NCBI GenBank assembly: GCA_020832235.1
Contig: JAFIEZ010000003.1
Coordinates: 1 to 64,000, forward strand
Direction of reading: 5' to 3'
DNA length: 64,000 bases
Source: Bacteroidota bacterium
Lineage (GTDB): Bacteria > Bacteroidota > Rhodothermia > Balneolales > HLUCCA01
Shown: positions 1,762 through 11,070 of the stretch, in pieces
Layout: each line of letters opens with the position of its first letter
How positions within the stretch are numbered: the stretch's first letter is position 1
Position numbers and translations under genes: made by a program
Notes under the pieces: generated by a model
Seen by the model: the letters and a program-made list of their open reading frames with translations, nothing else
Told to the model about the DNA's origin: nothing
The model's database searches: none

Positions 1762-2538
1762 CTAAAAATTTACGCCAACTCCAAATGATAAGGTTCTGAA
1801 ATGTATACCCAGAATGTCAAGCCATCGGTGTGTCAGTGCAAAGTGTAACTGCCCTCGATGTATGCCAGCACCAAACTCATGATTTCTTATAAACCCATAT
1901 CGCTGTGCCATTGAAGAATAGGTGTAGTTGAGCGAAAATGGCTCTTTGAAGTACCAGCTGAAATTCGTGAGCAGCTCTGGGCCAAGGTAGTTGCTGCTCC
2001 CAATCCCCAAAGATCGCACACCCAGGTAAAGGCCTGCATCTCCATTCTCTAGAAAGCGGAATTTGCGACCTACAACCGCATTAAACTGACGGATAGGGTA
2101 TGGGGCTGCCGCTTCCCGCAATTGTTCATATCGGCTGTTAATGGCCCAGTAGCCGATGTGCCACGTTGCTTCCATTGCAAATTGTTCCATTGCCAAACTA
2201 CCTTGTGGCATGGATGTGTTTAAACGCAATTGCAATAGCTGTGATTTACCATCGTCTGCATAACCACTGAAATTACGGATGCCCGCACCGTTTCCGTTTG
2301 GGTTTCGGAAAGGGGCCGGGTTATATCGCATGCGTGGTTCATCTGGGTGCAGGGCCCGAAAGTAAAAAAACTCAGGCATGAACTCTGCAGTAAGCTCAAT
2401 TACGGCAAATAGAGTGGAAATTCCTGTAGAGGAATGTTCTCCATCCAATCTTTTTCGTGCTTCTTCCGTACGCGATTGTGCAAAAGCGACATCCGTCAGT
2501 AGCAAACAAACGAGAATAAGTAGTGAGCGTTTAGCCAT
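1762..2538 (-). CDS. Exported outer-membrane beta-barrel-like protein of unknown function
   Basis: 258 residues from the ATG at 2538; an upstream in-frame TTG at 2562 would add 8 residues ahead of an otherwise perfect signal peptide, so the ATG is preferred. Residues 1-20 (MAKRSLLILVCLLLTDVAFA) form a signal peptide cut before Q. The rest is rich in alternating aromatic and polar strands, such as 'SLNYTYSSMAQRYGFI', and ends in 'SFGVGVNF', a terminal Phe typical of outer-membrane barrels. No family is recognised. It is the last gene of the minus-strand block behind nagZ (94-base gap), so an envelope role near peptidoglycan turnover is possible but unproven. Confidence 0.6.
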   Translation of the reverse strand: MAKRSLLILVCLLLTDVAFAQSRTEEARKRLDGEHSSTGISTLFAVIELTAEFMPEFFYFRALHPDEPRMRYNPAPFRNPNGNGAGIRNFSGYADDGKSQLLQLRLNTSMPQGSLAMEQFAMEATWHIGYWAINSRYEQLREAAAPYPIRQFNAVVGRKFRFLENGDAGLYLGVRSLGIGSSNYLGPELLTNFSWYFKEPFSLNYTYSSMAQRYGFIRNHEFGAGIHRGQLHFALTHRWLDILGIHFRTLSFGVGVNF

Positions 2539-2632
2539 AGTCGTACGATTAGATGTCAACAAAATTGCAGATTAATTGCAAAAAAGCACCTGCATTTTGA
2601 TGTTATACGACTCGTTCAGCTAAAGGATGTAC

Positions 2633-3706
2633 CTAGGCCAGGTATTTTTTCTTCAGCTTTAGAATTCGCTTGACAGAGGCGTTTATCCGAAGTTCATCAA
2701 TAACCCCTTTGTCAAGGAGGTTTTTCATGGTATGAATTGATCTTGATACCACATCGGGCTCATAGGCCAGGTTATTACCAAAAGCCAAAATATCAACACC
2801 CGCCTGTAAAGCCAATTCAATTACGTTGTCCAGTCCAAAATAGTCGGTAATGGCCTGCATTTGTAAATCATCACTAATAATTACACCATCGTATTTCATT
2901 GATTCGCGTAAAATACCCTGCATAATACTGGCCGATAGGGTTGCCGGTACGTTGGGGTCGAGCTGACCGTTAAAAATGTGGGTTGTCATTACCATGTCGC
3001 AAAGCCCCTCTGCAATAAGCCTTTCGTAGGGTATCATCTCTTCAGGTGACCAGGTTTCCGTTACATCTGCCATACCAAGATGGGTATCGGCGAGTGAGCT
3101 GCCATGTCCCGGAAAATGTTTCAGAGCCGTCATTACACCAATTTCCTGGTGACCTTCAATGTAGGCTCGTGCGTGATTGGTTACACGATCTGGCTGATCT
3201 GAAAATGTTCTATCACGACCGTATATAGCTTTGTTCTCTTTATTTATACCCAGGTCTACACAGGGAGCAAAGTTAAGGTTTAAACCATATGCTTTAAGCA
3301 GTCCGGCTATGTGTTTGCCTTGTTCTCGTGTGGCGTCTAAGTTGTCAAGTTGGCCCAGAGATTTGTGGGACAGTGTTTCCGGGAAACCATTTTCGGGCTT
3401 CAGACGGTTTACTGTACCGCCTTCCTGATCGATAGATAAAAAAGTTGGTACCCTAAGTATCTGGTAAAACTGCTGCATGAGTGAACGCAGCTGCCCGGGC
3501 GAAGCGATGTTTCTATCGTGACTTTTTTTCAAGACATCATAGTCGAAAAGAATAATCCCTCCAACCTCGTGTTTTACGATGTCATGGTAGATAGGGTTGT
3601 CGCTATCGAGCTCCATTCCGCGAAAACCCACCAACAGCATTTGCGCCAGTTTTTGATCAATACTCAAATCACTGAGTTCGGGGAGTTCTAGCGTTGGAAT
3701 GTTCAT
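2633..3706 (-). CDS. nagZ: Beta-N-acetylhexosaminidase, GH3 family (NagZ-like)
   Basis: 357 residues, the length of a single-domain GH3 enzyme. Such enzymes remove terminal beta-GlcNAc from muropeptides during cell-wall recycling. The diagnostic NagZ signature is intact: KHFPGHG at residues 196-202 followed by D207 and H209 (general acid/base dyad), and 'IISDDLQM' near 276-283 carrying the nucleophile Asp. 'SIDQEGG' (91-97) is the substrate-binding motif. No signal peptide is evident, so it probably acts in the cytoplasm on imported fragments. It follows the DUF4922 gene by 24 bases, and the block also encodes an AmpG-like permease and a NamZ-like muramidase. Confidence 0.9.
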   Translation of the reverse strand: MNIPTLELPELSDLSIDQKLAQMLLVGFRGMELDSDNPIYHDIVKHEVGGIILFDYDVLKKSHDRNIASPGQLRSLMQQFYQILRVPTFLSIDQEGGTVNRLKPENGFPETLSHKSLGQLDNLDATREQGKHIAGLLKAYGLNLNFAPCVDLGINKENKAIYGRDRTFSDQPDRVTNHARAYIEGHQEIGVMTALKHFPGHGSSLADTHLGMADVTETWSPEEMIPYERLIAEGLCDMVMTTHIFNGQLDPNVPATLSASIMQGILRESMKYDGVIISDDLQMQAITDYFGLDNVIELALQAGVDILAFGNNLAYEPDVVSRSIHTMKNLLDKGVIDELRINASVKRILKLKKKYLA

Positions 3707-3730
3707 GAAATAGGGTTTTTAAGTCGTTGG

Positions 3731-4720
3731 CTACGATTGTAAGGAGTCTGAAACCGCCATCAAAACAGCTTTATCAGCACTTAGTTGCGTAAACATATCG
3801 GTGAGTAGATCTGCATTTAATCTGTCGAAGTCACGTTCAAGCGGAGTTATACATACGCCGCCGAAATCTACAGAAGCCGGGGAGAATAAAATCTGGGCAT
3901 CCCCATCGAGGAAGAATTGATTCGGTCGATGTTTCTTTCTGAGGAATACAATGGTTGTCCACCGGTTCTGTCTGTAGGATGTTAATACGTTTACCATTGG
4001 CTCTTCCTCCGGATCTTCGTTAAATGCAGAGAAAGAGTTAAACAACGTATTGAATGCTTGTACAGACTCGGTGTGGGAGCTGCTGTTGATTACTATGAAA
4101 CGGCGAAGCCCGTCATCAACGCTGGCAATGCGAGTTAGTACGTTTTCTGATAACCATATTCCGTGGTTTTTTACCAGGTCAGGCCATGTGTTGTCGATGC
4201 CCATAAATCCGAAATCACCTGCTTGAAAGTGAAGATGATCCGGAGCGGAGGCGCCACATTTGGGTCCATTATAAAACAGTGAATAACGGCTGCCCATTTC
4301 TTTGGTTAACTGAAGCATATCGGGAAAAGCCCCAGAAATACGCTGATCGATATGCCTTTTATGGGGTATTGTAAAATGTTCAGGAAATATGGGGAAAGGG
4401 TTACATAATACGGTATAATCGCCAGTTTCAACGCCTTTTTGCTCAGGAGGAAGGTTTTCAAGACATAGAAAGCACTTTCGTTCAGCAATCGACTTTTTAT
4501 CAACCTTAGCTGCGCTGGAGACAATCCGACCGGGATTGAATTGTATGCTCATACGGAAGCCGTCGAAGGTAATTTCCTTTGAAACTACGGTTTTCAGTGT
4601 ATCAGCTCCTTTTTGCAGCATTGGCCAGTTTGCGTATTGCTGCTGCAATAACGCCCGGGACATGTCGGCGAGACTACTCCCGGGGTTATTTAAATCGTTT
4701 GCACTAAGAAATCTGCTCAT
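3731..4720 (-). CDS. DUF4922 protein, HIT/GalT-like nucleotidyl-transfer fold
   Basis: 329 residues, cytoplasmic. The first half carries a CxxC pair at C83/C86 ('CFLCLENLPP'), several His (H115, H120, H123), and 'ASAPDHLHFQAG' around 157-168. This is an HxHxQ motif like the active site of GalT, Ap4A phosphorylase and GDP-hexose phosphorylases of the HIT superfamily. From family knowledge a nucleotide-sugar phosphorylase or sugar-1-phosphate nucleotidylyltransferase activity is plausible; the substrate is unknown. The start overlaps the stop of the upstream glycosyltransferase by 4 bases (ATGA), which implies translational coupling and a shared pathway. The setting between an AmpG-like permease and nagZ suggests amino-sugar use. 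Confidence 0.7.
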   Translation of the reverse strand: MSRFLSANDLNNPGSSLADMSRALLQQQYANWPMLQKGADTLKTVVSKEITFDGFRMSIQFNPGRIVSSAAKVDKKSIAERKCFLCLENLPPEQKGVETGDYTVLCNPFPIFPEHFTIPHKRHIDQRISGAFPDMLQLTKEMGSRYSLFYNGPKCGASAPDHLHFQAGDFGFMGIDNTWPDLVKNHGIWLSENVLTRIASVDDGLRRFIVINSSSHTESVQAFNTLFNSFSAFNEDPEEEPMVNVLTSYRQNRWTTIVFLRKKHRPNQFFLDGDAQILFSPASVDFGGVCITPLERDFDRLNADLLTDMFTQLSADKAVLMAVSDSLQS

Positions 4721-6186
4721 TTTTCTGCGGCAACTTTTTGTTGACGTGCCTTTAGTTCGAACGTACGGATTTTATCTTTGTACGCGTTATGAGCGTTCAT
4801 TTTGTTGATATCCAACGAAGCGTCGGTGTTGTCGTCCCACCGGCGTACACAGTAAATGGCTTCATAAACGCGACCAATCTGATAGTTTCGTGAAATGGCC
4901 AGTCCGAGTGCATAGTCTTCACCATAACTGACATTTGGTACATTTAATGCCCGCAATACAGGGGTATAGAAGGCTCTGGGGGCACCGAGTCCGTTAATAC
5001 GAATGGCATTATTCCGGCCGTTCTCTGGTGTCCACTCGCGGTGGTCAATTAGACCCGGAGGGATGGGTTGCAGGTTCACATCCGTCATTTCGTAGCTGCC
5101 TACAACCATAGCACATTTATCCTGTCGGAAAACGTCAACTATACGCTGAAGTGTTGTATCGTCTTTGTATACATCATCGCTGTCGAGCTGAATGGCATAC
5201 TTACCGCAAAATTCACTATGAACAGCTACATTCCAGCATCCACCTATGCCCAGATCTTTACGTTCGGGAACGAGTACTTTGAGGCGAGCATCTGTTGCTG
5301 CAATTTCCTTCAACGCTTCGTATGTACCATCTGTTGAGAAGTTGTCTACTACAATAAGGTTGAAATCGAAGTCTGCTTTCTGGGTTAATACGGAATTAAC
5401 TGCATCACGAATAGTGCGAATTCGGTTGCGCACTGGAATGACTACAGCGGCTTCAACAGGGAAGTTTTCACCAGTTTCCTGAACGTCTTTAAATTCTGGC
5501 TTGAGGTACGCGCCAATAGCCTTCAGGTGTTCCGTGAAGGCTTTTTCCATTTCAATTTGTACTTCGCGGTTTTTTGGATCTACATAATCAAACATTTTTT
5601 CGCCAGACTTACGCAGATCGGTTTCAACCGTGCTGTATAAGAATTCGCTCACACGTACCAGATCATTATTTTGAGAAATTCTCAAGCGTAGATCGTAGAG
5701 GCCGGCGTGTTTGTAATTCGATTCGAAGGCGGCTACAGCTTCTTTCAGTGCGGCAGTTTTGAATATCAAAAGTGGTCCAAAATCGAAATCGTCTCGGACG
5801 CTGCCAAACTGGTAATCGTTAACAGGATGGTTTGAACGGCTATCACCTTTGATTTCAATAAAGTCGGAGTAGGTTAACCCGGCTGCGGTATCTGCCGCAA
5901 CTTGTAAATAGCGCTCTAGTGCAAACTGACCTAGATCTATGAGGGTGTCTTTTGTTAAAAAGGCAGTGTATTCTGTCTTAGTAATTTCTGCAATTTTTTG
6001 AAATGTTTCTGTTCCCAGTGGTGTGCTGACTACCAAGTCATTTGTTTGAGGTTTGTTGACATTACTAGGCTCATTACTCATTAGGTAAACGGCTTCAACC
6101 TGACCGGTAGCCAAAAAAGCATCAATTGTCTGGAGGGTGAAGTCGTTATTATGGTAGGGGAGAAATACGGTAATTTTTTTTGACAT
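4717..6186 (-). CDS. Two-domain glycosyltransferase (GT2 family), cytoplasmic
   Basis: 489 residues with two GT-A-like halves. The C-terminal half (about 245-470) is a normal GT2 domain: 'AAVVIPVRNRIRTI', 'LIVVDNFSTDGT', the nucleotide/metal motif 'IQLDSDDVY', and a later 'GEDYALGLAI' acceptor/catalytic region. The N-terminal half (1-230) begins with a similar 'ITVFLPYHNN' and a 'GLTYSDF' segment but lacks a clear DxD, so it looks degenerate, perhaps a regulatory or acceptor-binding copy. No membrane segment is seen. It overlaps the DUF4922 gene by 4 bases and follows the AmpG-like gene by 156 bases. Its sugar donor and acceptor are unknown. Confidence 0.8.
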   Translation of the reverse strand: MSKKITVFLPYHNNDFTLQTIDAFLATGQVEAVYLMSNEPSNVNKPQTNDLVVSTPLGTETFQKIAEITKTEYTAFLTKDTLIDLGQFALERYLQVAADTAAGLTYSDFIEIKGDSRSNHPVNDYQFGSVRDDFDFGPLLIFKTAALKEAVAAFESNYKHAGLYDLRLRISQNNDLVRVSEFLYSTVETDLRKSGEKMFDYVDPKNREVQIEMEKAFTEHLKAIGAYLKPEFKDVQETGENFPVEAAVVIPVRNRIRTIRDAVNSVLTQKADFDFNLIVVDNFSTDGTYEALKEIAATDARLKVLVPERKDLGIGGCWNVAVHSEFCGKYAIQLDSDDVYKDDTTLQRIVDVFRQDKCAMVVGSYEMTDVNLQPIPPGLIDHREWTPENGRNNAIRINGLGAPRAFYTPVLRALNVPNVSYGEDYALGLAISRNYQIGRVYEAIYCVRRWDDNTDASLDINKMNAHNAYKDKIRTFELKARQQKVAAEK

Positions 6187-6342
6187 GGGTGCAAATATTA
6201 TGATGATAAATAAGGGTATTGTCGCTGTGCGATTGCGCTGTTTGATTGGTTCTGGCGCAGCAGATGATGTTCTTTGTTTACTAGAGAATATATTGAAATA
6301 CAGTGTGTTTTCCCGACAGAAAACACACTGTATGTACGTCTG

Positions 6343-8256
6343 TTATTCAGTTTCTTCCGGAATTTGCTCTTCTTCTTTCTTTTTGCCGAACTCGGGATCG
6401 ATGTCAACGAAAGCGGCAATTATAAAGGCTGGTATTGTTGCTATTAGAACCCATACAAAGAAGTGTTGATAGCCAATAATTTCCTGAATCCAACCGCTGA
6501 ACATTCCCGGAATCATCATGCCAAGCGCCATGAATCCGGTAGTTATGGCAAAGTGTGCCGTTTTATGTTCGCCTTCCGAAACATAAATCATGTAGAGCAT
6601 ATAAGCTGTAAAGCCGAAGCCGTAGCCGAATTGCTCAACCAGAACAGCGAGGTTAATAATCACGAAGCTGTCGGGTAAGGCGTAGGCGAGGTAAATATAT
6701 ACCGCATTGGGAACATTGATGGCAATAACCATAGGCCATAGCCAGTAGCGCAGACCGTGACGGGACGCAAGAATACCTCCAATAATTCCACCTGCTGTTA
6801 GGGCCAGAATACCAACAGTACCATATACGAAGCCAACCTCCCCGGTAGTAAGTGCAAGTCCCCCGGCTTCCTGTGCATCCAGCAGGAAAGGGGACGCCAG
6901 TTTAACAAGCTGGGCCTCACCAAACCGGTAGAACAGCAGGAATAATAATACGATACCAATCTGTTTCTTTTTAAAGAACAAAGCAAATGTGCGGAAAAAT
7001 TCTGAAAATATGCTTTGATCGGGTTGCCGGACTGCAGGTTTGTCGGAGTCTGCACGAGGAAGGATTACTCGGTGATACAGGAAGAAGAAAATAAACATAC
7101 CTGTTAGCAGCATGAACGTTATAGACCACGCGAGTGGAATATTTCCTGCTCTTCCGCGGAAAGTTGCTTCCGTAGCAAAATCCAGTTTACTGTCGAGCTG
7201 AATGACGGCCATGGCCGGTACATTCCAGTTCTCAGCGGTGAACACGAAGCGGTCACCTTCTACCAGCGAGATACTGTTGTCTCCGGCTTCCCTGCCAAAA
7301 TTCAATACGATCTCTTCACCTGGAGCGGGTGAACCTGAAAGGTACACATATACTACTCCCACGTTGCCTGTCATTCCGTCGTCACGCAGTGGCTCGGTTT
7401 CCGGCGCAAAGTTCTGCAGGAAGCTTTCTAATGGCGCGACTACGAGCCGGCTCCACCAGCCTTGTCGGGCGGCTTCGGTAACTTCCTGAAGAGCATCAGG
7501 CGAGGAATCGTTAGCCTCCATCCCGTCAATTACATAAAAGTTACTCCTCACATTCCAGTTTCTCGCCACATCCCTTATAGAGTCGGCAGCAGCAACGGGA
7601 ATTCTGTTAACGCTTATTTCCAGGTTTTCAGGGTATGTGAGGAATCGAAGCGGACCATCTTGTTCAGCTACCTGAATTTCAGAAGGGTGACGTTGCTGAA
7701 CAATTTCGGTTTGAGACGCCTTAACCTGCATTTCAATGGTATCCAGACCAGTAGTAGACTCTATGTAGCCAGCGAATATGATGAGCAAACCCTGACCGGT
7801 GATCATGGCAATCCGATAGAACGTGCTCCTTACTCCTACAAACCAGGCCTGTTTGTGTTTCGAGAGTGCTAGCATGTAAAGTCCGTCAGCAGCAATATCA
7901 TGGGTTGCTGAACTAAATGCAAGCAGCCACATAAAAGCCAATGTCCACTGAAAGAAATTAGGTGCCGGTATGGTAAAAGCTATGCCCGCAAGACCAGCCC
8001 CAACCAGCAATTGCATGGTAACTACCCACCATCGTTTAGTTTTTACCAGATCAACCAGCGGACTCCATAGAGGCTTGATTACCCAGGGCAAATATAACCA
8101 GCTTGTGTAAAGGGCTATTTCGGCATTTGAAATACCCAACCTCTTGTACATAATGACAGAAACGAGCATTACGACAACGTAGGGGATTCCCTGGGCGAAG
8201 TATAGAGTTGGAATCCATGCCCATGGATTTGTAGTCTTTTTGTTCTGTTCAGACAT
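6343..8256 (-). CDS. AmpG-like MFS permease with large extracytoplasmic insert
   Basis: 637 residues, against roughly 420-490 for ordinary AmpG-type carriers. Helices 1-5 lie in residues 12-165, with AmpG/MurT-like features such as 'YFAQGIPY' and 'SATHDIAADGLY'. The remaining helices start near 376 and run to about 620. Residues 166-375 form a soluble beta-rich insert ('VVYVYLSGSPAPGEEIVLNF') that should sit outside the membrane. AmpG carriers import GlcNAc-anhydroMurNAc peptides, and related MurT carriers import MurNAc. The gene lies between a NamZ-like muramidase and nagZ, which supports that substrate class. A terminator separates it from the upstream DUF1343 gene, so it may have its own promoter. 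Confidence 0.8.
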   Translation of the reverse strand: MSEQNKKTTNPWAWIPTLYFAQGIPYVVVMLVSVIMYKRLGISNAEIALYTSWLYLPWVIKPLWSPLVDLVKTKRWWVVTMQLLVGAGLAGIAFTIPAPNFFQWTLAFMWLLAFSSATHDIAADGLYMLALSKHKQAWFVGVRSTFYRIAMITGQGLLIIFAGYIESTTGLDTIEMQVKASQTEIVQQRHPSEIQVAEQDGPLRFLTYPENLEISVNRIPVAAADSIRDVARNWNVRSNFYVIDGMEANDSSPDALQEVTEAARQGWWSRLVVAPLESFLQNFAPETEPLRDDGMTGNVGVVYVYLSGSPAPGEEIVLNFGREAGDNSISLVEGDRFVFTAENWNVPAMAVIQLDSKLDFATEATFRGRAGNIPLAWSITFMLLTGMFIFFFLYHRVILPRADSDKPAVRQPDQSIFSEFFRTFALFFKKKQIGIVLLFLLFYRFGEAQLVKLASPFLLDAQEAGGLALTTGEVGFVYGTVGILALTAGGIIGGILASRHGLRYWLWPMVIAINVPNAVYIYLAYALPDSFVIINLAVLVEQFGYGFGFTAYMLYMIYVSEGEHKTAHFAITTGFMALGMMIPGMFSGWIQEIIGYQHFFVWVLIATIPAFIIAAFVDIDPEFGKKKEEEQIPEETE

Positions 8257-8333
8257 AGTGGATTAGTTTTTGATCGCCAAGTTTGGCAAGGCGCTTAGGT
8301 TACATACAGATCATGCTTAGCATCAAGTAAACA

Positions 8334-8375
8334 AAAAGCCTGACGAAGAGTCAATGGAATCTTCATCAGGCTTTT
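8334..8375 (-). terminator. Strong rho-independent terminator after the DUF1343 gene
   Basis: The 16-base arms 8334-8349 and 8360-8375 match at 15 of 16 positions around a 10-base loop. On the minus strand the stem is followed by TTTTTGTTT. It begins right at the DUF1343 stop and would uncouple that gene from the AmpG-like gene, at least partly. Confidence 0.8.
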
Positions 8376-8379
8376 GATG

Positions 8380-9627
8380 TCAAGGATATAAAAGGTACGG
8401 TTTGGATAGCTCCCGGAATGCCTCTATATCTTTGTTGAGAAATTCTTCGATATCAGCGTATCTGAAATTCTGTGAAAACAGCTCACGAACGGTGCTGGAC
8501 CCCATCACGCGATCGAACATGCGTATGCGGGCTGGTGTGGTATCAAATGGGTTCTTGTCGGGATGTAGAATGTGATGTTCCTGCATGAACAAAAACTGAA
8601 TACTCATAATGTTCAGATTGAAAAAATCGTCAATATAAAGTTGAACTCCATGCAGTACTTCTCCCTGGTGGCGTCCATAGTAGGGTCTCCAGGTTTTCGG
8701 TCGGAATCGAATTCCTTCTAACCCAAGGTTATTCATTCGATCGGCCATAACCTGGGCATCTATCCAGGGTGCACCCAGAAGTTCAAAAGGCATAGTGTAA
8801 CCAACACCTTCGCTTAAGGTGTGCAATTCACCGATGATGCCGGTAGCTGTGTAGAATATAGCGCTGTGACGATGTGGAATATGAGGGGAAGTAGGAACCC
8901 AGGGTAAACCGGTATCTTCAAAGGTCATGTTGCGGTTCCAACCTTGGATAGGAATTACAGTGAGATCAACTTGTACTCCGTTTGTTAACATGCGCTCGCC
9001 ATTTAGCATTTTTGCAAGCTCTCCGGATGTGAGGCCGTATACATAGGGAATTGCGAATTGACTTACAAACGATATGTAGTCGGGCTCAGTGATATTTCCC
9101 TCAATCTTTCCACCTAGCGGATTGGGTCGGTCGAGCACCATAAAGGCAATTCCTTTTTCTGCGGCAGCCTCCATAGCAAGTCCCATGGTAGATATAAATG
9201 TGTAAGAACGTGATCCTACATCCTGAATATCATATATCAGGATATCGATTCCCTCCAGCATCTCCTGGGTTGGTTTGCGAGTTGATCCATATACAGAGAA
9301 AACAGTAATTCCGGTTCTTTCGTCAACATAGGTTTCAACATAGTCGCCTGCATTAATGTCGCCGCGAACACCATGTTCGGGACCAAAAAGGGCAACCAGG
9401 TCTACATTTTCGGCTTCATGCAGCAGGTCGATATTGGAGATAAGATGCTTATTTACTCCGGTTGCATTGGTAATTAAACCGACACGCAAACCTTCAAGCT
9501 GTGCGAAGTTGTTTTGTTCTAATACATCCAGGCCGTTCAGCACAGATGGTGGGTTTTGACTAGTACTGTTTTGTGTGCATGCCCCCATAAAAATGGTCAT
9601 CATGGCAATAAGATATAGTAATTTCAT
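8380..9627 (-). CDS. namZ: DUF1343 lipoprotein, NamZ-like exo-beta-N-acetylmuramidase (GH171)
   Basis: 415 residues from the ATG at 9627; the longer open frame upstream to 9714 would bury the signal sequence. The start 'MKLLYLIAMMTIFMGACTQ' is a lipoprotein signal with a lipobox ending at C17. Typical DUF1343 stretches follow: 'VGLITNATGVNK', 'LFGPEHGVRGDINAGDYV', 'LIYDIQDVGSRSYTFI' and 'VLDRPNPLGG'. The founding member of this family, B. subtilis NamZ, releases MurNAc from the non-reducing end of wall fragments. The protein is probably anchored in the periplasm or outer membrane, feeding the AmpG-like carrier encoded next. The assignment rests on family membership. Confidence 0.82.
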   Translation of the reverse strand: MKLLYLIAMMTIFMGACTQNSTSQNPPSVLNGLDVLEQNNFAQLEGLRVGLITNATGVNKHLISNIDLLHEAENVDLVALFGPEHGVRGDINAGDYVETYVDERTGITVFSVYGSTRKPTQEMLEGIDILIYDIQDVGSRSYTFISTMGLAMEAAAEKGIAFMVLDRPNPLGGKIEGNITEPDYISFVSQFAIPYVYGLTSGELAKMLNGERMLTNGVQVDLTVIPIQGWNRNMTFEDTGLPWVPTSPHIPHRHSAIFYTATGIIGELHTLSEGVGYTMPFELLGAPWIDAQVMADRMNNLGLEGIRFRPKTWRPYYGRHQGEVLHGVQLYIDDFFNLNIMSIQFLFMQEHHILHPDKNPFDTTPARIRMFDRVMGSSTVRELFSQNFRYADIEEFLNKDIEAFRELSKPYLLYP

Positions 9628-9702: not shown

Positions 9703-9737
9703 CAAAAAAGGCATCCCGCTTTTTTTGCAGGATGCCT
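9703..9737 (-). terminator. Rho-independent terminator of the 436-residue T9SS gene
   Basis: The arms 9709-9719 and 9727-9737 pair at 10 of 11 positions around a T6 loop. On the minus strand the stem is followed by a T run. It lies just beyond the stop at 9760 and upstream of the DUF1343 gene. Confidence 0.75.
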
Positions 9738-9759: not shown

Positions 9760-11070
9760 TTATTTTAGTAGGGTCATTCGCATACTGCTGGTAAAATTTC
9801 CGGCTTGCATGCGGTAAATATACACGCCGGATGAAAGGTTTGATCCGTTGAATTGTACAGTATGTGAACCTGCGGGGCGTGCCTCGTCAATGAGGGTATA
9901 TACCTGTTGGCCGAGCATGTTATGTACGGTGATTCGCACATGTTCTGAATGAGGTAAGGTGAAATGTATACGGGTTGCCGGGTTAAACGGGTTCGGGAAA
10001 TTTTGCTCTAGCGTGAATGCTCGCGGTTGATCGATATCTTCAACACTAACTGCAATTTGCATTGAACTAGTTAAATCAAATGCAGCCAAGCCTATATTTG
10101 TAGCCAGCACATAAGCAACCTTATTTTCGCGGTCTATTGTCACGCCTCCGACTCTGAATAAGTTCTCCCCCAGCCCAATGTTTCCTGATTCTGCGAGAAT
10201 TTGAGGATTACTCACGTCAGTTATGTCAATGAGGTAGAAGGTATTCTCTTCAATACCCGGAACGCCGGTAACTAAATATTCGCGACCATCAGCTGCAATG
10301 TAGTCCATATCTCCAACGGACGTGGAAATAATTTGGTCATTTACTGAAGCAATGCGTGCTCCTGTTTCAAGATTAATTTTTCGGATAAATTCATCGCGTC
10401 CGTTAATCCATCCGTAGGGAGTACCCGCTATGGGAACAATATTCGCATTGGCAGCGTTTTGAGGGATCTCAATTACTCGAGGAGTTGAATTCAAAACCGT
10501 TCCATCAAAGCTGAAAACCGCAATATTTGAGTTGAATGTACCGGATACAAATAGCTCGATATCGTCACCAACACCGCGAACTCCAATACCGTCGCCATAA
10601 CGATCGTTAGGGGTAGGTTTTCCTTCATAAAGTGGCTGAGGGGTAGCGTCTTCATCCTCCCAATACCATATAATAAAATCAATACCACTTTCTAGAATCA
10701 GATTAATGGCGAAAATTTGGCCGTCTTCCGTTACAGCTATTCTATTTATAGGCAGTAATCCCCCCGCGATTCCTGTGGTATTCATAGTTCCTATAGATTC
10801 ACCTGTGGATGTATTTATCCGCTCGATTCTGATACCGTCTGCCCTCGATGGAACTAGTAAGTTGCCGGTTGCTGGGTTGAATGCAACTCCACGTACCTGG
10901 TTTCCCGCATTCGAAAGCCATGGTACGCTGCCAGCAGGTACAGACCACATTGGTTCCCCAAATGTTGGTAAATCCTGAGCTTGAATTTTTGAAGTCAAGC
11001 TCATAGTTACAATGATGGCGACTATTGTAGCCGAGAAGTATTTTGTTAGATGTTGTATGAGTTTGCTCAT
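9760..11070 (-). CDS. Secreted propeller-like protein with T9SS sorting domain (paralogue 1)
   Basis: 436 residues. Residues 1-31 are a long signal peptide ending 'SKIQAQ'. The body (about 35-345) contains repeated short strands, 'RGVAFNPATGNLLVPSR', 'RIAVTEDGQIFAINL' and 'GGVTIDRENKVAYVLATN', which look like beta-propeller blades. Residues about 355-436 form the T9SS C-terminal domain with 'NFPNPFNP' and a final 'MTLLK'. It should cross the outer membrane through the type IX machinery, whose genes are not in this window. The body is clearly related to the N-terminal parts of the proteins at 27644 and 30017. The ligand or role is unknown. Confidence 0.8.
   Translation of the reverse strand: MSKLIQHLTKYFSATIVAIIVTMSLTSKIQAQDLPTFGEPMWSVPAGSVPWLSNAGNQVRGVAFNPATGNLLVPSRADGIRIERINTSTGESIGTMNTTGIAGGLLPINRIAVTEDGQIFAINLILESGIDFIIWYWEDEDATPQPLYEGKPTPNDRYGDGIGVRGVGDDIELFVSGTFNSNIAVFSFDGTVLNSTPRVIEIPQNAANANIVPIAGTPYGWINGRDEFIRKINLETGARIASVNDQIISTSVGDMDYIAADGREYLVTGVPGIEENTFYLIDITDVSNPQILAESGNIGLGENLFRVGGVTIDRENKVAYVLATNIGLAAFDLTSSMQIAVSVEDIDQPRAFTLEQNFPNPFNPATRIHFTLPHSEHVRITVHNMLGQQVYTLIDEARPAGSHTVQFNGSNLSSGVYIYRMQAGNFTSSMRMTLLK

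Follow-up and report, generated by a model that had tools for sequence, protein, structure and literature searches.

What are a glycosyltransferase and a DUF4922 protein doing inside a peptidoglycan-recycling operon? The question is raised by a block of six genes in the first 64,000 nucleotides of contig JAFIEZ010000003.1 (assembly GCA_020832235.1), from a Bacteroidota bacterium of the HLUCCA01 lineage of the Balneolales; we refer to this whole stretch as the window. All six genes named in the initial annotation were found in place, running in one direction on the minus strand from 9627 to 1762: NamZ, an AmpG-like permease, a two-domain family 2 glycosyltransferase (GT2), DUF4922, a NagZ-like glycoside hydrolase of family 3 (GH3) and a putative outer-membrane protein. 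The genes for GT2 (4717-6186, minus strand) and DUF4922 (3731-4720, minus strand) overlap by exactly the four bases described, ATGA (4717-4720, minus strand). Our favored answer, which we hold tentatively and at a little under an even chance, is that GT2 and DUF4922 form a conserved cytosolic module acting on wall sugars imported by AmpG, with DUF4922 handling the nucleoside diphosphate (NDP) sugar of its partner GT2. The block itself would then be a Balneolia-type peptidoglycan-recycling operon, in a partly known setting.

GT2 is the obligate partner of DUF4922

The distribution of the pair was determined in a fixed, Ignavibacteria-rich sample of 296 Bacteroidota genomes (in the GTDB sense). 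GT2 was counted as present at a profile match of E 1e-60 or better, and three weak DUF4922 matches (G027, G136 and G160) were excluded, since they probably represent other HIT proteins. A strong DUF4922 match occurred in 41 of the 296 genomes; GT2 accompanied it in 40 and was found in none of the remaining 255 (Fisher 7e-49, kinship ignored), with 34 genera and several families represented. The DUF4922 genome lacking GT2 is one draft genome, and the pairing extends to several genomes with the two genes on separate contigs or far apart. GT2 stood directly upstream of DUF4922 in 84 loci, a count in which a few genomes appear twice, and 18 of the 84 had the same 4-base overlap. In one genome (G230, L047) the two are fused in a single open reading frame (ORF) of 826 residues. 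Pairwise identities of the two proteins correlate with r = 0.86, as is expected for co-inherited genes. GT2 is the obligate partner of DUF4922.

The G230 fusion (L047:8283-10763) sits outside the recycling operon, which in that genome has a second GT2 beside SpoIID with no DUF4922 between them. Another locus (L052, G047:C140) holds a broken second copy of the pair, its GT2 carrying an internal stop and its DUF4922 split by ~1.9 kb of inserted ORFs. A scan of the genome contigs with the single DUF4922 sequence of the window gave no match; an alignment-based search returned at least 575 DUF4922 relatives.

A leaderless SpoIID and the link to wall recycling

The most surprising result was that the co-occurrence is three-way and includes a SpoIID-like protein predicted to be cytosolic. 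In the majority of Bacteroidales loci DUF4922 adjoins a SpoIID/LytB-domain protein. The longest possible ORF of this protein begins a few residues ahead of the conserved domain in most of the 53 named loci, and a leader was seen in none; among secreted SpoIID paralogues used as controls, nearly all had a clear hydrophobic leader (L165 was equivocal). A profile of the leaderless type matched exactly 39 of the 296 genomes, namely every one of the 41 DUF4922 genomes but the two that belong to the genus of the window, and the protein co-occurs with the pair even when unlinked to it. Counted without regard to type, SpoIID (80 genomes) predicted the pair poorly, which changed when the leaderless type was set apart. 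The window's lineage lacks leaderless SpoIID, and a cytosolic-type NagZ occupies its usual place after DUF4922; NagZ was not adopted as a strict replacement, because G070, G200 and G216 have a cytosolic-size NagZ plus SpoIID.

The leaderless SpoIID/LytB proteins (among L031-L155; examples are L095:10909-12225 and L034:5721-7070) carry an HCQxYxG motif and an invariant Glu within an SSEM motif. Aligned by motif, this Glu is likely the counterpart of E88, which is essential in Bacillus subtilis SpoIID (PMC6635528). The older annotation "amidase enhancer precursor", which implies export, is probably wrong for them. A SpoIID-type wall cutter in the cytosol is unexpected in itself, and among open-licence papers we found no report of the leaderless form.

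The neighborhoods tie the pair to wall recycling, as the initial annotation had proposed. The named Bacteroidales order is GT2-DUF4922-SpoIID-AmpG-NamZ-FAD/FeS oxidase-MurT-MurK-MurQ; the oxidase, missing in some genera, resembles D-lactate dehydrogenases, which would fit the by-product of MurQ. AmpG, NamZ, MurK/T/Q, NagZ or SpoIID lay within 10 kb of the pair in 42 of the 48 named loci with sufficient flanks. An AmpG-like permease was present in 41 of 41 pair genomes, a figure that describes those 41 genomes only. The initial annotation held that its proposal would fail if such pairs were found mostly outside recycling loci; this was not so in Bacteroidales, but of the 38 loci in the phylum sample, with its many Ignavibacteria, only 19 were linked to recycling genes.

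This last figure bears on an alternative, that the pair has a role of its own (for example in envelope stress) and that its proximity to recycling genes in some lineages came about through chance or co-regulation. It would account for the half of the Ignavibacteria-rich loci that lie away from recycling genes, many of them beside a block of histidine kinase, NtrC, STAS and SpoIIE genes. We nonetheless think it unlikely, since several families have come independently to layouts with AmpG/NamZ/Mur genes or SpoIID, and the co-occurrence with SpoIID extends to genomes in which it is unlinked. Two arrangements were seen repeatedly. In many Ignavibacteria (L085, L090, L106, L107, L153) the pair stands face to face with a constant set of genes (SpoIIE-type response regulator, STAS, NtrC-type regulator, histidine kinase), and an RlpA-like protein at times flanks it on the opposite side; L084, L088, L108 and their relatives have another order, SpoIID-GT4-(GT2)-DUF4922, beside an arginase gene.

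Candidate chemistry of the module

The window DUF4922 protein belongs to its own Pfam family (PF16269, E 2e-58, 197 bits, cut-off 23.6) and contains the GalT-like HxHxQ motif that had been claimed for it, as HLHFQ at residues 162-166 (4223-4237, minus strand). Across 37 aligned DUF4922 sequences H162, H164 and F165 are invariant and Q166 is conserved in at least 90%; in the CxxC (4463-4474, minus strand) C83 is invariant and C86 conserved in at least 90%. Two members (L038:2730-3746 and L075:9682-10698) have HLHFH in place of HLHFQ, a variant that may alter hydrolase/transferase behavior. Relative to E. coli GalT, we take C83, C86, H123 and H162 to be the zinc ligands, N151 to be N153, H164 to be the nucleophile H166 and Q166 to be Q168. 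The DUF4922 residues equated in this way are invariant or nearly so, and by analogy H164 would carry the nucleotidyl group.

A structure model of DUF4922 (predicted local distance difference test score, pLDDT, 95.8) gave as top fold match the DUF4931 protein 4qvu (E 4e-5), followed by GalT, whose best chains reached a probability of 0.93-0.97 at a template-modeling (TM) score of ~0.37. Motif and fold both place the protein in the GalT/Apa branch of the HIT superfamily, a fold class that differs from that of the MurU nucleotidyltransferases. A GalT/Apa-type activity on a sugar nucleotide is plausible for it. In this branch, HxHxQ enzymes act through a nucleotidyl-histidine intermediate and can catalyze reversible phosphorolysis of NDP-hexoses (PMC10069634).

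Sequence profiles lean toward another part of the same branch. The sole convincing Protein Data Bank relative of the DUF4922 profile is yeast Apa2 (E 3e-5), 25 of the 37 members show Ap4A_phos_N similarity, and none of the 37 matched the GalP_UDP_transf Pfam family at E 1. With diadenosine tetraphosphate (Ap4A) phosphorylases as nearest sequence relatives, DUF4922 might essentially be an Ap4A- or nucleotide-clearing enzyme, its tie to GT2 reflecting removal of an inhibitory nucleotide product and not supply of a sugar nucleotide. We regard this as rather improbable. The window protein reaches 12.4 bits against the Ap4A_phos_N cut-off of 23.1 (the G230 fusion passes with 25.8), the fold search puts DUF4931 and GalT first, and a housekeeping enzyme would hardly be expected to be tied so strictly to a single GT2 and a single SpoIID. 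A literature search for DUF4922 returned only papers on plant GDP-L-galactose phosphorylase.

GT2 (Pfam Glycos_transf_2, 3.5e-21, 76 bits) consists of two GT-A domains arranged as in the chondroitin polymerase K4CP, its best fold match (E 3e-22). The C-terminal domain has 62 invariant positions and the N-terminal domain 17; the latter is possibly inactive. A DSDD metal/donor motif at residues 335-338 (5173-5184, minus strand; invariant in 29 sequences) and an invariant GED, both in the C-terminal domain, supply the DxD and the catalytic Asp/Glu of a GT-A enzyme. GT2, DUF4922 and NagZ of the window have no hydrophobic segment and no leader, and are therefore predicted to be cytosolic.

The likeness of GT2 to two-domain polysaccharide polymerases (K4CP, heparosan synthase) would suit a scheme in which the pair turns salvaged sugar-1-phosphate into a nucleotide sugar from which GT2 builds a surface or secreted glycan. 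It would also suit the description of GppX, regulator of the ampG-murTKQ operon of Tannerella forsythia, as affecting a "glycosylation related operon" (PMC5388701). In the loci compared, no lipid-carrier, flippase, polymerase, undecaprenyl-phosphate transferase or export gene recurs with the pair, and the protein that almost always joins it is a cytosolic SpoIID and not one for glycan export; we consider the scheme improbable. The idea in the initial annotation that recovered amino sugar is spent on a glycan found no positive evidence, the proteins of the module looking cytosolic. Such a branch from salvaged sugar is possible, but we do not favor it because no export or lipid-carrier gene recurs.

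Gene order, obligate co-occurrence, the single fusion, the missing leaders and the conserved catalytic motifs are observations. For the favored reading, a module handling the NDP-sugar of GT2 in the cytosol, we infer the enzyme activities, the direction of the DUF4922 reaction and the sugar, nucleotide and acceptor as follows. NamZ and other hydrolases would free wall fragments, AmpG would import mainly peptide-free disaccharides, and NagZ would split these. The second His of the DUF4922 HxHxQ motif would take a nucleoside monophosphate group and pass it between phosphate or sugar-1-phosphate acceptors, so that the enzyme would make, exchange or phosphorolyze an NDP-sugar, and GT2 would use (or regenerate) this sugar nucleotide with an acceptor derived from the wall. 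Leaderless SpoIID, the third cytosolic member in most lineages, would cut the bond between N-acetylmuramic acid (MurNAc) and N-acetylglucosamine (GlcNAc). Several findings weigh against this reading: the GalT fold matches are only partial (TM about 0.4), half the loci of the phylum sample are unlinked as described above, and the pair occurs in two genomes without NamZ and in eight without MurQ. These absences indicate that the module depends on neither gene and does not need MurNAc 6-phosphate catabolism. Both genes were also rejected as predictors of the pair, MurQ for these same absences and NamZ for being present in 286 of the 296 genomes.

Two more specific cycles can be drawn from the same proteins. 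In one, which we consider decidedly unlikely, a reverse GT2 reaction would move a sugar from the imported disaccharide to NDP, and DUF4922 would phosphorolyze the NDP-sugar to sugar-1-phosphate and return NDP, the two together acting as an energy-saving disaccharide phosphorylase. This would account for the obligate pairing, the fusion and the kinship of DUF4922 to phosphorylases, in a branch that includes NDP-sugar phosphorylases. However, NagZ, which would make the same cleavage by hydrolysis, shares the operon in the window and two relatives, and reversal of a GT2 reaction is unfavorable for most linkages. In the other, to which we give little credence, GT2 would use recovered wall sugars to build an oligosaccharide containing MurNAc or GlcNAc, SpoIID would cut it in the cytosol, and DUF4922 would link it to the sugar-1-phosphate and nucleotide-sugar pools; wall sugar would then be stored or buffered as an intracellular glycan.

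The window operon and known systems

Three of the four remaining genes of the window operon are of recognizable recycling type. NamZ, an exo-beta-N-acetylmuramidase (DUF1343; 8380-9627, minus strand), has both of its domains, NamZ_N (Pfam, 5e-83, 278 bits) and NamZ_C (6e-37, 128 bits), and a lipobox-like leader (FMGAC). The AmpG-like permease of the major facilitator superfamily (6343-8256, minus strand) shows many hydrophobic peaks and matches TIGR00901 with 171 bits in two stretches, well below the cut-off of 350. This cut-off was passed in none of the 41 pair genomes and excludes the AmpG homologues of this group generally. About 200 extra residues separate the two AmpG-matching halves, and many Ignavibacteria and some Bacteroidales have similar AmpGs of 600 residues. 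The GH3 protein (2633-3706, minus strand; Pfam Glyco_hydro_3, 1.5e-64, 219 bits) falls a little under the NagZ equivalog cut-off (183 of 207 bits), and its KHFPGHG...DTH motif and lack of a leader give it the NagZ signature KH(F)PGHG...DxH of a beta-N-acetylglucosaminidase. The last gene (1762-2562, minus strand) encodes a putative outer-membrane barrel protein with a signal peptide; it had no Pfam or NCBIfam match and has a homologue after NagZ in a congener (L031). A strong terminator-like hairpin upstream of NamZ (9709-9737, minus strand; an 11-pair stem plus T-run, matching the consensus) appears to divide the operon from the upstream gene at 9760-11070. Just past the other end, at 375-1332, lie ORFs that by eye resemble a split transposase.

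The congener (G223, L031/L076, HLUCCA01) has the identical six genes in identical order, which makes the arrangement more than chance; the other sampled genomes of the window's order have neither GT2 nor DUF4922. In the GT2 tree window and congener cluster with an Ignavibacteriales genome (L079), whose contig also carries AmpG, NamZ, GT2, DUF4922 and NagZ, a grouping that suggests lateral transfer. The "complete route" to free amino sugars first ascribed to the block holds up to free GlcNAc and MurNAc; for the steps beyond, MurQ, AnmK and a BadF-type kinase are present in the genome, all away from the operon. The genome has three NamZ genes and, at G000:C13:315295-317489, a second recycling cluster in which a ~1000-residue GH3 protein adjoins a BadF-type kinase.

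The neighborhood is already known in one organism. T. forsythia transcribes xanthan lyase, gtf, gtf, lytB, ampG, ybbC, murT, murK and murQ as one unit (PMC5388701, PMC7670621), and its AmpG carries mainly peptide-free disaccharides (PMC7670621). In this operon (Tanf_08345-08385), which includes AmpG and NamZ (ybbC), the two gtf genes immediately precede lytB and ampG; gene for gene, the Bacteroidales loci compared here agree with this operon, and judging by gene order the two gtf genes are very probably GT2 and DUF4922, in which case the second is not a glycosyltransferase. The earlier statement that the pair has no described place must be qualified accordingly: the position was on record (PMC5388701), with no function given there, and open-licence papers yielded no function for either gene. 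Of the full T. forsythia order the window keeps NamZ, AmpG, GT2 and DUF4922 alone, with NamZ and AmpG first and with cytosolic NagZ and the outer-membrane protein instead of SpoIID/LytB, MurT, MurK and MurQ.

Each protein likewise resembles, and departs from, a described family. DUF4922 shares with the GalT, GDP-L-galactose phosphorylase and Ap4A phosphorylase branch the HxHxQ motif, the Asn ahead of it, the CxxC and two His of GalT, the fold and the Ap4A_phos_N similarity, but the window protein falls under the cut-offs of the named families and has its own Pfam family and an obligate GT2 partner. GT2 has the duplicated GT-A layout and DSDD of K4 chondroitin polymerase and heparosan synthase 2, its best fold and profile matches, but is shorter, with a weakly conserved N-terminal domain and no known polymer. 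Leaderless SpoIID, absent from the window, resembles the domain of the SpoIID/LytB lytic transglycosylase-muramidases of B. subtilis and Waddlia (PMC6635528), but has no signal peptide or membrane anchor and is strictly tied to GT2 and DUF4922. The NamZ/NagZ/MurK-MurQ recycling of B. subtilis and Tannerella uses the same enzymes to cleave wall fragments, MurQ and the BadF kinase lying elsewhere in the window's genome, whereas its described pathways contain no GT2, DUF4922 or cytosolic SpoIID. Bacteroidota of the gut and mouth both recycle peptidoglycan and scavenge it, and T. forsythia depends on doing so. Set beside these schemes, a three-protein set inherited as a unit with the importer, for which none of the schemes found has a step, exposes a gap in the recycling pathway and points to an undescribed intracellular step of wall-sugar handling.

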